This document shows, in pieces, positions 58,604-64,000 of a DNA stretch of 64,000 bases. The position numbers and the translations under genes are program-made. Source of the DNA: Bdellovibrionales bacterium (GTDB lineage Bacteria > Bdellovibrionota > Bdellovibrionia > Bdellovibrionales > UBA1609); NCBI GenBank assembly GCA_027459485.1, contig DAIDIG010000002.1, positions 1 to 64,000 on the forward strand. The letters are read 5' to 3'. The notes beneath the pieces were generated by a model. It was not told where the DNA came from. It saw only the letters and a list, made by a program, of their open reading frames with translations, and did no database searches. Within the stretch, counting starts at the first letter, position 1, and each line of letters starts with the position of its first letter.

Positions 58604-59143
58604 TTATCTGGGGAAGAGATCCCGCAGGCGTTCAAATCCGATCGCGATCAGCATTCGCAAAGCCTCGCGTTCAGAGCCTAAGTTGCACAGATTTTGCGTG
58701 TTACGTAATATTTCGAAGGTGCGTTGATCGATCGGCAAATTCAGGGTGGTTGCGGGGATATTCGGCGATCCGTTCGTCGGCGCATTTGAATGCGAATGCA
58801 GTGCCGGCTGGTTTTGAACAGGTGTCGTGGCCGAAGGCGGCGGATTTAAATGAGCCGAATTCAAATTTGGGTTCTGGGCAGTTGGTAGTGGCCCATGGTC
58901 GAATTGTTTCATCCCTTCGGCGAGCGCGCGCAAATCCTGCTTAAACGTTTCGGAACTCGCCTCGGTTAGGGGCGGCAGCATGGGTGAACCGCCACGGCGG
59001 CGCGCTTGCATGTATAAAGCGACCAAATTATCCGAATTGTTTGCGAGTTCGCGAATCGACTGCGGCTGCGAGCGCAGCCATTCATAGGCGGCAGCCAAAA
59101 TATCGCGTGTATATGCCTGCGGCGGGGGCAGAGTTGTTGCCAT
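58604..59143 (-). CDS. Uncharacterised protein with a possible ribbon-helix-helix C-terminus
   Basis: 179 residues from ATG 59143. The first 50 residues are helical (TRDILAAAYEWLRSQPQSIR), the middle is Pro/Asn/Ser-rich and disordered, and the last 45 (LNLPIDQRTFEILRNTQNLC followed by SEREALRMLIAIGFERL) have the strand-helix-helix pattern of Arc/MetJ DNA-binding proteins. If so, it may be a small regulator; this is inference. 19 bases before ileS, same strand. Confidence 0.5.
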   Translation of the reverse strand: MATTLPPPQAYTRDILAAAYEWLRSQPQSIRELANNSDNLVALYMQARRRGGSPMLPPLTEASSETFKQDLRALAEGMKQFDHGPLPTAQNPNLNSAHLNPPPSATTPVQNQPALHSHSNAPTNGSPNIPATTLNLPIDQRTFEILRNTQNLCNLGSEREALRMLIAIGFERLRDLFPR

Positions 59144-59209
59144 GGCGAAACAAGTTAGGCCGGGGTCGGCGAATAGGCAAGGCCTAAGATAAGGCCGGCC
59201 CGCCAAACC

Positions 59210-60670
59210 TTACTCCGCATAGTCCTTTGCAACAATTCCGTACTTTTCTATTTTTCTTAAGAGCGTTTTTTTCGGGATATTAGCATGCAAAGCGGTCTGG
59301 TTAATTCGACCCTTGAACATTTTAAGCGCTTTGATTATGAATTCCCGTTCAAACGCCTCCTTATGCTTGTTAAAATCTAAACTTTCACCTGAAATCGTCA
59401 CGATTTCTTCGCTCGGTTCGTCTGCGGCGATATCTTTGTTCACTTCGATGTCATCGACCTCGTCGAGTTTCAAATTCGGCACATTGAGTTCAACGCCGGT
59501 CGCGAGCAAAAAAGACTCCGGCAGCGATTGTACGGTCAAGTGCGTGCCCTCTTCGAGAATGAAGGAGTGTTCAATGACGTTTTCAAGTTCGCGAATGTTA
59601 CCCGGCCAGTCGTATTTTTTAAGTAGCGCGAGAGCTTCGGGTGTCGGGCCGACGATTTTCTTACCTTGCTTCTTGTTGAACTTCTGAATGAAGTTATTGA
59701 CCAGCTGTTCGAGGTCGTCGCGCCGTTCAGACAGCGACGGTAAAAAGATCGGCATGACATTGAGACGATAATACAGATCTTCGCGGAATTTGCCGTCTTT
59801 GATCATCTGCTCGAGCGGCCGATTGGTAGCGGCTATGATGCGGACGTTCGATTCGATTTCGCGGTTTGCCCCAACGGGAGTAAATACTTTTTCTTGTAAC
59901 ACACGCAGAAGTTTCACCTGCATCATGAGCGGCAAATCGCCGACCTCATCGAGGAACAGCGTGCCCCCTTCGGCGTATTGAAATTTGCCGATTTTACGTT
60001 GATCGGCGCCCGTGAAAGCGCCTTTTTCGTGCCCGAACAGTTCGGATTCAAATAGGTTTTCGGGTATGGCCGAACAATTCAGAGCGACGAACTTACCCTC
60101 TTTTTGACCCGAGTTGACGTGAATGGCGCGGGCGACGAGTTCTTTACCCGTACCCGAAGCGCCGCGAATCAAAACGGGGGTGTCGACCTTCGATAATCGA
60201 TGTATAATGTTGAACACTTTGCGCATTTGCGTGTTCGACCCGATGATTTTGCGCCCTTGTTCGGTCGATAATTGCGGCGCCGAAGCGACGACTTCCGACA
60301 CCAAATTGTAGGCGGCCAAAGCTTTATTCACGAGGTCGACGAGCTCCTCGCTCTTGATCGGTTTTGAGATGTAGTTATAGGCGCCTTCTTTGACGGCCAT
60401 CACGGCGTCGTTGATGTTGGCGTAGGCGGTCATGATGAGAACGACCATCGACGGGTCCATCTCCTTGATCGCGCTCAGCGTTTTAAGCCCGTTCATGCGC
60501 GGCATATCCACGTCGAGTATCACCATGTTGTAGGAGCCCGCCTTCACTTTGTCGACGGCGTTGATACCATCGAAAGCTTCATCGGCTTGGAACTTGCCTG
60601 TCGACTCGAGCGTATTCTTCACCGAGAGCCGAAGCCCCGGGTCGTCATCACAAACAAGCACTTTAATCAT
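59210..60670 (-). CDS. NtrC-family sigma-54 response regulator
   Basis: 486 residues. REC domain with D9-D11 and phosphoacceptor D53 (ILDVDMP), T near MTAYA and K near KPIK; AAA+ domain with GASGTGKELVARAIH, ELFGHEKGAFTGADQRKIGK, RLNVMPIFLPSLSERRDD; Fis HTH (NQTALHANIPKKTLLRKIEK). All residues needed for phosphorylation and sigma-54 contact are present. It lies 19 bases after the kinase gene, so the two are the likely pair. Targets unknown. Confidence 0.93.
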   Translation of the reverse strand: MIKVLVCDDDPGLRLSVKNTLESTGKFQADEAFDGINAVDKVKAGSYNMVILDVDMPRMNGLKTLSAIKEMDPSMVVLIMTAYANINDAVMAVKEGAYNYISKPIKSEELVDLVNKALAAYNLVSEVVASAPQLSTEQGRKIIGSNTQMRKVFNIIHRLSKVDTPVLIRGASGTGKELVARAIHVNSGQKEGKFVALNCSAIPENLFESELFGHEKGAFTGADQRKIGKFQYAEGGTLFLDEVGDLPLMMQVKLLRVLQEKVFTPVGANREIESNVRIIAATNRPLEQMIKDGKFREDLYYRLNVMPIFLPSLSERRDDLEQLVNNFIQKFNKKQGKKIVGPTPEALALLKKYDWPGNIRELENVIEHSFILEEGTHLTVQSLPESFLLATGVELNVPNLKLDEVDDIEVNKDIAADEPSEEIVTISGESLDFNKHKEAFEREFIIKALKMFKGRINQTALHANIPKKTLLRKIEKYGIVAKDYAE

Positions 60671-60689: not shown

Positions 60690-62537
60690 TCATAAATCCA
60701 TCGGGAGATCGACCGTAAACGTCGACCCCTTCGCCGGTTCGCTCTCAACCGATATCTGACCGTTGTGCAAATTCACAAAATACCGGGCCAAATACAACCC
60801 AAGCCCGCTGCCTTTAATGGCGCCGTCGCGCACATTGCGGCTGCGGTAAAACTTCGTAAACAAATTTTCGATTTCGTCGGCCGAAATGCCGATGCCTTGA
60901 TCCGCCACTTGCACCATGAGGCGGCCGTTTGACTCTTCGGTCGTCACCAGAATCGAGCTGCCTTCGGGGCTGTACTTGATCGCGTTTTCGACCAGGTTCG
61001 AAAAGACTTGTCGCATGAGATCTTCGTCGACTTTCACGCTGAAAAGCGGCTCGAATTCCATCACGATTCGAATATTCTTTTGCTTGGCGAGATAATCGAG
61101 TTTCTGAATCGTTTCGCTTAATAGCGCGTTGATGTCGCGTGACTTGAGCTGCAGTTTGATCTCTTTACTTTCGATGCGACCAAGATTCAAAATCGAACCG
61201 ACAAATTCGGTGAGTTCTTGCGAAGAGTCGCTGATCGTTTTGATCGCTTCGCGTTGCGATGGTGTAAGTTTAGTCGTGTCGCGAAGCGCGATTTCGGTCA
61301 TACCTTGAATGCGTGCCAGCGGAGTTTTCAGATCGTGCGACATGAGCCGCAGAAAGTTCGATTTCAATTCTTCGACTTGAGTCAGCAGATTGTTGCGCTG
61401 GTAGTACTCCCACGACCGGCGGTTCTCGATGATGAGCCGATACGGGATAAAAAAGTAATAGCAGATAAACACCGTGAGAAGCGGATGTGCGACGTCGATC
61501 CAAATGCCGTCGGCAGCGAACAAAACCCACGAACAAAACAGATATCCGGTGAGAGTCAGTGCCAAAATGAAAAGTCCTCGCCCTGGGCGTAACGTGAGCA
61601 CGATCAAGACGGTGACGATCGCGATCAGACACGTGATGAGAAGGTTCACCCAGTACGGTACTTGAATGGGCGCATTGTTTAGAATCAACGTGTCGAGCAT
61701 GTTGGCTTGCAGCTCGGCGGTCGACATGGCTGTGAGATCCCGAGAATAGGGTGTCATGACGTAGTCGTTTTCGTCGGCTTTATTGTCTTTGCCTACGATG
61801 ACAATTTTGTTTTTGAAAACATTCGACGGGATGTACCCGTCCGCCACATCGACGAAACTGTATTTGGGGTACGTCCCGGTCGGATGATAATTGATGTAGG
61901 CCTGATGCGTGCGTTTGAACGTAAAAACGCCGCGATAATCGGTGACGCTGTTTCGGCCGGTCAGCGAGTCGGCTACTTTCATTTCAGCGAGCGGTCGGCC
62001 TTCGAGATCTAAAATGAGTCGTCGCGAAACGCCGTCGCGCGCAAAATTGTAAACGTCGGCGGTCGTCGGGCCCGACTCCACATCGAGATCCTGCAGAGGT
62101 GGCAAAAGACGAAATTCATCTTCGACACCTTGATCGGGGAGTTCGCGCTCCTCAATCACGAGCAAATTAACGCTCTTCGCGGCTTGGGCGAGTGCTTCAA
62201 GCTGATCGTACGAACCCATAATTTCGTTGAAGTCGTCGGGATACAAAACCTGCCGAGGCGCCGATTTGTGCAACTGATTGAACAGGTGAACGAAATCGTC
62301 GGCGTTGGGCAAACGGCGCAGTTGCTCTTGTGTTTTCGTGTCGATCGTCACAAGCACGATCTGACCCGACGTGTGCGGCGCGGGCCGCGTGCGCACGCGC
62401 ATGTCGTAGAAAAATCCCTCGAGATAATTGAGCCGGAATTGCGAGATAATAATCGCAAGGCCGATCGCCAGCCCGATTCGAAGGGCGGCGAACAACCATC
62501 GGCGATTTCTTTTGGAGGGGGACTTTTCCCGTTCCAT
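60690..62537 (-). CDS. CHASE2-domain sensor histidine kinase
   Basis: 615 residues from ATG 62537 (AAGAGGTG just upstream). One N-terminal helix, an extracytoplasmic CHASE2 domain (residues about 40-300; EGFFYDMRVRTRPAP, VLVTIDTKTQEQL), three hydrophobic helices (about 310-380), then HisKA with H401 in SHDLKTPLARIQ, N-box NLVENAIKYSPEG, DQGIGISADEI and GSGLGLYLARYFV. Active kinase by motifs. It follows the small peptide gene by 8 bases and precedes the NtrC-type regulator. Confidence 0.93.
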   Translation of the reverse strand: MEREKSPSKRNRRWLFAALRIGLAIGLAIIISQFRLNYLEGFFYDMRVRTRPAPHTSGQIVLVTIDTKTQEQLRRLPNADDFVHLFNQLHKSAPRQVLYPDDFNEIMGSYDQLEALAQAAKSVNLLVIEERELPDQGVEDEFRLLPPLQDLDVESGPTTADVYNFARDGVSRRLILDLEGRPLAEMKVADSLTGRNSVTDYRGVFTFKRTHQAYINYHPTGTYPKYSFVDVADGYIPSNVFKNKIVIVGKDNKADENDYVMTPYSRDLTAMSTAELQANMLDTLILNNAPIQVPYWVNLLITCLIAIVTVLIVLTLRPGRGLFILALTLTGYLFCSWVLFAADGIWIDVAHPLLTVFICYYFFIPYRLIIENRRSWEYYQRNNLLTQVEELKSNFLRLMSHDLKTPLARIQGMTEIALRDTTKLTPSQREAIKTISDSSQELTEFVGSILNLGRIESKEIKLQLKSRDINALLSETIQKLDYLAKQKNIRIVMEFEPLFSVKVDEDLMRQVFSNLVENAIKYSPEGSSILVTTEESNGRLMVQVADQGIGISADEIENLFTKFYRSRNVRDGAIKGSGLGLYLARYFVNLHNGQISVESEPAKGSTFTVDLPMDL

Positions 62538-62545
62538 GGCACCTC

Positions 62546-62677
62546 TTACGAATTGCGTTCCGGGCACGGTTGCGTGCGTTTGCCCTCTTGGGCGAGCCGC
62601 TCGCGCGTGTTTTCGTTAGCCGACATTTTGTTACCGGCGCGTTCCGACTTGGCGCGGATTTTTTTGATGTGTTTCAT
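62546..62677 (-). CDS. 43-residue peptide gene, possible radical SAM substrate
   Basis: Small ORF missed by length filters. ATG (62677-62675) overlaps the radical SAM stop as ATGA and has AAGGAG at ideal spacing; TAA at 62548-62546. The peptide begins MKHIKKIRAKSERAGNKMSA, is highly charged in the first 33 residues (leader-like) and ends RTQPCPERNS with one Cys between two Pro. No signal peptide. The gene sits between a peptide-modifying radical SAM/SPASM gene and a sensor kinase. It could be the precursor of a modified peptide or just a small regulatory protein; not confirmed. Confidence 0.6.
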   Translation of the reverse strand: MKHIKKIRAKSERAGNKMSANENTRERLAQEGKRTQPCPERNS

Positions 62678-64000
62678 GCGTTCTCCTTTTCCGTCGCTTG
62701 TGCGCTGAATGCGTTTTCAAGCAGCGATTGTTTGTAGTACCAAATAGCGTAAGCCGCGACCTCGCGTGTGCGCCGACAGAAGTTCGGATCTTTAGAATGG
62801 CGATCGCCCGAGTACGACTTGTGCACGGCCATGCAGCCGCCGCCACACAGATGTCGGGCCCAGCAGGTCTCACACCGATTGAGTTGAATAAGCGACGAAT
62901 CGTATTGTTCAAGCACGCTTGGCGATACGTCGGTCCCACGGCCGATTTTTTCGGCCGGGTCGTTCATGAACCAATTGCAAACGTAAAGGTCGGCGCGAGT
63001 ATCTGATTGAATGAGCGATTTGCCCGCTCCACAATAATTGTGTTGCCGTGTTTGGCCGGCAAGACGCGAGAGCGGCCGACGAAATTGCGCGATTTTGGCG
63101 AGGCCCGTAAGGCCGTCTCGTGCGAAAACGCGAGCCGCGACGTTACTAAGCCCGTCGAGATAAACGGTGGTGGATTTCTCTGACGTTTCGCGCGAGTCGT
63201 TATTCGCAAAGTTAAAGTTGTAACGATCCCAATTCATTTGAAGGCTTTCGAGAAAATCGAACGTCCGCTCGACGCCGCAATTGTGCGCGCCAAAAACGCA
63301 GTTGACGCTGAGGCTGCCCAGTTCGTTGCGAACCAAGCGAAGGTTTGCGAGCCCCTTCAATGTTTGTTCAGTCGAAGAACGTCCGCTTTTCGCGGGCCGA
63401 GTGACATCATTTACTGTTGGGTCACCGTCCAGGCTTATGTTCACATGAAAGCGATAGCGCGCGAGCAGGGTCGCGACACTCGGGGAGATCAGCGTGCCAT
63501 TCGTGTTGATCGAGAATTGGACGGCGATATTTCGGCCGGCGACGACGAGTTCGGCGTAACGACAAAGCGATTCGATGATTTGCGGGTATAACAGCGGTTC
63601 ACCTCCGCAATACTCGATTTCAAACGCATCGCCATCAGGCACAGCCTCTAGAAAGTGGCGGATCTGCTCTTCAGCGACCTGAGTGTCGATGCGAACGACT
63701 TTTGAGCCGTACGTTCCGGCGCTTTCACGTGTGCCGTCAGAATCGACAGCCGCGCAATACGTGCAGTTCAAATTACAGATTTGCGCAATATTGAGGAGTA
63801 GCGCGCGAATTCCGCGCACGCTGACTTGATCCGACGTTTCACTGCTGATTTCTTTGTGCCAAGTTTCAAGTTCGCCGTGAACTTCATCCGCAGTTTGCAA
63901 GCGAGTTTCATCGGCTAGCGCCTGCCAGGCTTCGTCATCGAGATCGGCGATCTCCAAATTTCGCGCGTGAAAACCAACGGTTACACCACTGGGCCCGCGA
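62674..64000 (-). CDS. Radical SAM/SPASM peptide-maturation enzyme, 5' end outside window
   Basis: About 442 codons are visible and the frame continues past the right edge (the region RNLEIADLDDEAWQAL is still coding-like), so the true start is not seen; a TTG at 63957 is probably not it. The SAM-cluster motif CNLNCTYC is encoded at 63754-63777, then EYCGGEPLLYPQ (GGE motif) and SINTNGTLI. The C-terminal SPASM domain has seven cysteines with the exact CETCWARHLCGGGC spacing (C-x2-C-x5-C-x3-C), binding two more Fe-S clusters. Such enzymes build thioether, C-C or other links in ribosomal peptides. Its end overlaps the small ORF by ATGA. Confidence 0.88.
   Translation of the reverse strand, partial: RGPSGVTVGFHARNLEIADLDDEAWQALADETRLQTADEVHGELETWHKEISSETSDQVSVRGIRALLLNIAQICNLNCTYCAAVDSDGTRESAGTYGSKVVRIDTQVAEEQIRHFLEAVPDGDAFEIEYCGGEPLLYPQIIESLCRYAELVVAGRNIAVQFSINTNGTLISPSVATLLARYRFHVNISLDGDPTVNDVTRPAKSGRSSTEQTLKGLANLRLVRNELGSLSVNCVFGAHNCGVERTFDFLESLQMNWDRYNFNFANNDSRETSEKSTTVYLDGLSNVAARVFARDGLTGLAKIAQFRRPLSRLAGQTRQHNYCGAGKSLIQSDTRADLYVCNWFMNDPAEKIGRGTDVSPSVLEQYDSSLIQLNRCETCWARHLCGGGCMAVHKSYSGDRHSKDPNFCRRTREVAAYAIWYYKQSLLENAFSAQATEKENA

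Follow-up and report, generated by a model that had tools for sequence, protein, structure and literature searches.

A conserved single-cysteine peptide gene between a CteB-like radical SAM/SPASM enzyme and a CHASE2 histidine kinase in Bdellovibrionales: a probable RiPP precursor and candidate signal

In the current study, we describe a short peptide gene and its operon at the end of a 64,000-nucleotide stretch of DNA from a Bdellovibrionales bacterium (contig DAIDIG010000002.1, positions 1 to 64,000), the whole of which is referred to here as the window. The operon runs in the order radical SAM (rSAM) enzyme, peptide, CHASE2 histidine kinase and NtrC-type regulator, with the following features.

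62674..64000, (-) strand: predicted radical SAM/SPASM peptide maturase with an N-terminal RRE; the gene extends beyond the window end
62683..62688, (-) strand: Shine-Dalgarno sequence AAGGAG, 5 nt from the peptide ATG
62546..62677, (-) strand: probable precursor peptide gene, 43 codons plus stop, with homologues at 75/75 assessable rSAM loci
62660..62677, (-) strand: N-terminal motif MKHIKK of the putative leader, kept in family alignments
62549..62566, (-) strand: C-terminal tail CPERNS with Cys38, the probable modified region; Cys in 72/72 distinct peptides
60690..62537, (-) strand: CHASE2-domain sensor histidine kinase (Pfam CHASE2, HisKA and HATPase_c), directly 3' of the peptide gene
59210..60670, (-) strand: NtrC-type sigma-54-dependent response regulator (receiver, AAA+ with GAFTGA, and Fis HTH)

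The 43-residue ORF, whose translation is MKHIKKIRAKSERAGNKMSANENTRERLAQEGKRTQPCPERNS, is a genuine conserved gene. The initial annotation had pointed to a short ORF with AAGGAG near its ATG and ATGA coupling to the rSAM gene, and both features are borne out: the Shine-Dalgarno spacing is 5 nt, and the peptide start codon and the rSAM stop codon share an ATGA, the rSAM gene ending at 62674. At the other end of the rSAM gene, aligned relatives point to a GTG at contig position C2:64035 as the start codon, with which the protein opens MELRRYKDI. The kinase most likely starts with the ATG at 62537, and thus its gene does not overlap that of the peptide. Between the response regulator and ileS, positions 58604-59206 encode a protein of about 200 residues with the motif PPQAYT, which recurs in the operons of relatives and matched no Pfam family.

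The rSAM gene is present in 81 of the 144 genomes of the class. Within the group formed by the window genome and the 59 genomes nearest to it, 16 genomes, the window's own included, have it at E below 1e-70. Organism titles, where loci carry them, point mainly to Bdellovibrionales metagenome bins and to species of Bdellovibrio. Outside the class, one diverged rSAM relative (locus L227, genome G301) has neither the peptide nor the kinase beside it. A peptide profile detected a homologous short ORF directly 3' of the rSAM gene at 75/75 assessable loci of the class (76 were fetched, the last being left out as its contig ends 31 nt past the rSAM gene), and no broken copy occurred at any of them. 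When the same profile was run in six frames against the 144 genomes, 51 matches at E<0.01 were returned in 50 genomes, and all 51 adjoin an rSAM gene, one genome accounting for two of them with its tandem copies. In the nearest relatives (16 genomes), the ORF after each rSAM gene bears a HIKK-type N-terminal motif and a Cys-bearing tail. An SD-like sequence precedes 51 of 57 distinct peptide genes. The peptide has evolved under purifying selection, with pN/pS = 0.19 pooled over six independent pairs and 0.22 between the window and its nearest relative, the latter a rough ratio of proportions for a pair in which synonymous change is saturated.

Among the 72 distinct peptides, the C-terminal Cys is invariant and in 70 it is the sole Cys; Gly precedes it in 42, and no fixed Asp or Glu acceptor lies near it. 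The family tail is mostly G-C-x-P-x, whereas the clade of the window has C-P-E instead. No NCBIfam or Pfam family fits the peptide; three stray family matches of single peptide relatives (E 0.01-0.07) were not credible. In one species (loci L051 and L167), two differing tandem precursor genes follow the rSAM gene, with the tails GLSCIPIG and GLACIPSGLPNSSSN.

The neighbouring enzyme is of a kind that modifies peptides. An AlphaFold2 model (mean pLDDT 93.6), which omits the first strand of the RRE, encoded beyond the window end, gave CteB (5wgg) as its top PDB match with Z 35.4 over model residues 1-426; the alignment begins at residue 1 and takes in the leader-binding RRE, so that the enzyme is assigned this domain at its N-terminus. 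Fold and profile comparisons both rank CteB, the maturase of SCIFF ranthipeptides, as the nearest solved structure. The CxxxCxxC cluster motif and the seven-Cys SPASM motif, as defined previously (PMC6231123), are both present and conserved in alignments of the rSAM family, and the two Aux I Cys are separated by 17 residues, as in CteB, whose Aux I cluster is reported to have an open site that is bound by a substrate Cys (PMC6231123). In NCBIfam, each of the best-scoring relatives of the enzyme is a peptide or protein maturase; PapB, a thioether-forming family, ranks first, and the enzyme lies below every NCBIfam cut-off.

The system resembles CteA/CteB in its RRE, radical SAM and SPASM architecture, in its Aux I Cys spacing and in having the precursor beside the enzyme. 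However, SCIFF precursors are Cys-rich, with six Cys per roughly 45 residues (PMC7470986), whereas those of the present family have one Cys and a C-x-P tail, and the window enzyme, at 109 bits, falls short of the 425-bit cut-off of the SCIFF maturase model TIGR03974, which places it outside the SCIFF/CteB family. The likeness to the PapA/PapB ranthipeptide system lies in PapB being the top NCBIfam relative and forming a thioether at Cys. PapA carries six C-x3-D/E motifs (PMC9413430); in contrast, the present peptide has a single Cys, no C-x3-D/E repeats and no fixed acidic acceptor, and the enzyme, with 156 bits, stays under the PapB cut-off of 340 (NF047865), again outside that family.

The peptide thus has what is expected of a precursor, namely a short conserved ORF, with leader and core, beside a peptide-modifying enzyme. 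Several findings support the earlier proposal of a precursor whose leader is basic and whose short tail holds a single Cys: the peptide is conserved, co-occurs with the enzyme, evolves under purifying selection and is duplicated in tandem in one species, and its neighbour is a CteB-like enzyme of the RRE-rSAM-SPASM type. We consider the ORF to be a real precursor acted on by the neighbouring rSAM enzyme with a probability of roughly 0.8, and the peptide is very probably the substrate of that enzyme. In the mechanism that we propose, the RRE would bind the basic HIKK leader, and the C-terminal tail would enter the active site, where the single Cys may be oxidatively modified. The most likely product would be a thioether between Cys38 and a residue close by in the tail (2 Da loss), because the enzyme has the Aux I Cys pattern of CteB with an open ligand site; by this analogy, we put thioether chemistry on the peptide forward tentatively, at a little under even odds.

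The regulatory setting of the operon was also considered. A -24/-12 sigma-54 element lies 5' of the rSAM gene, mostly 30-85 nt from its start. At the score cut-off used, it is present at 51/55 loci (93%), whereas shuffled sequences contain it in 14% of cases and control regions immediately 5' of the kinase in 5%. In the window genome, the element is TGGCAAAGGATTTGCT at C2:64061-64076, 61-76 bases beyond the window end; across this genome, exact-pattern sites number 37, against 18 for a reversed-pattern control. A similar site (score 12 or more) occurs at 7/18 kinase loci that have no rSAM gene, so the promoter may originally belong to the kinase operon. A conserved block about 120 nt 5' of the rSAM gene in Bdellovibrio was considered as a regulator site and rejected, as it more plausibly represents the RBS and start of a divergent gene.

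Since the operon encodes a sensor and a sigma-54 activator and is itself preceded by a sigma-54 promoter, it could plausibly regulate itself, the peptide serving as signal or output, and we infer that the NtrC-type regulator acts on the promoter of the rSAM operon. The mature peptide would then most simply be a signal, or a signal-dependent effector, in an autoregulated two-component circuit. A signal loop from peptide to kinase is a reasonable prospect, though less likely than not, and the fullest form of this idea, in which the single-Cys RiPP would be an autoinducing pheromone of Bdellovibrio and its relatives, sensed by the CHASE2 kinase and relayed through the NtrC-type regulator to its own sigma-54 promoter, should be regarded as speculative and on the unlikely side. 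The conserved block held no recognised exporter or leader peptidase and no signal sequence is evident in the peptide; both points weigh against a product that would have to reach a periplasmic CHASE2 domain.

The individual parts of the system are of known kinds. No description of the peptide or the operon was found in the open-licence literature, nor was the combination of a single-Cys C-x-P precursor, a sub-cut-off enzyme and a CHASE2/NtrC operon found described there; the main text of a B. bacteriovorus transposon-sequencing paper makes no mention of radical SAM or CHASE terms. The suggestion that the peptide would represent a new class stands insofar as neither peptide nor enzyme reaches a curated-family cut-off; RiPP classes themselves are defined by product chemistry, and to that extent the suggestion is only partly sustained. 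The family would add an overlooked modified peptide, too short for routine annotation, to bacteria that include well-studied predators. To our knowledge, the ligands of the CHASE2 sensor domain are mostly unknown, and the peptide would supply a concrete candidate.

The distribution of the kinase bears on a different role for the modified peptide. The kinase has matches in 144/144 genomes of the class, including clear full-length orthologues in many genomes without the rSAM gene, and along the kinase tree (FastTree) the rSAM gene switches between presence and absence at least 6 times. At 20/20 kinase loci fetched from rSAM-less genomes the peptide was absent (locus L225 is cut just before the kinase). 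At these loci the peptide is gone together with the rSAM gene and the kinase kept, which indicates that enzyme and peptide are gained or lost jointly while the kinase stays, and the many kinases without either partner indicate that the kinase is independent of the peptide. Sensor domains of rSAM-positive and other kinases differ only slightly in conservation, and relatedness could explain these differences. In a draft genome of the same genus (locus L226, G001:C36), the kinase orthologue is split into two frames, possibly through an assembly error.

Persistence of the kinase where the peptide is missing fits a reading in which the modified peptide is the precursor of a small cofactor or effector, with the two-component system turning its synthesis on or off. 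PQQ and mycofactocin likewise arise from a short, single-copy precursor encoded beside a SPASM rSAM enzyme, as in the window operon. A single precursor per operon in nearly all genomes, and the lack of evidence for an exporter or for ligand binding, also favour this reading. However, no partner oxidoreductase and no further cofactor-processing gene was seen to be conserved in the block; unlike the PQQ and mycofactocin pairs, the rSAM enzyme and its peptide are accompanied there by a CHASE2 kinase and an NtrC regulator. We regard a cofactor or effector precursor as a serious though minority prospect.

The peptide tails themselves raise a second alternative, namely maturation to formylglycine or another oxidised-Cys product in the manner of an anaerobic sulfatase maturase (anSME). 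Many tails match the C-x-P-x-R/K sulfatase motif: Pro stands at +2 of the Cys in 65/72 distinct peptides, and R or K at +4 in 24/72. The enzyme shares the common radical SAM/SPASM fold with anSMEs, whose structures are among its best fold matches (Z about 32), yet that match begins only after the RRE region, and the RRE itself speaks against an anSME-like enzyme. The window tail CPERNS, moreover, is not C-x-P-x-R. This reading is ranked low because the rSAM family lacks the extra, fourth Cys of the fully ligated Aux I of anSMEs, and because the second Aux I Cys is followed by N, P, Q or V in place of the anSME Asp, which places the enzyme outside the anSMEs; we consider it improbable.

Returning to the precursor reading, the tight ATGA overlap and the position of the ORF directly 5' of the kinase gene could also suit an ORF that is no enzyme substrate at all but encodes a small regulatory protein or serves to couple translation to that of the kinase. 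Purifying selection at the peptide level and the invariant C-terminal Cys argue against such a role, as do the tandem duplication and a pattern of presence and absence that follows the rSAM gene and not the kinase, making this account very improbable. That the ORF, which lies below routine gene-calling length, is spurious and yields no product has a negligible chance given its conservation at 75/75 loci and a pN/pS of 0.19.
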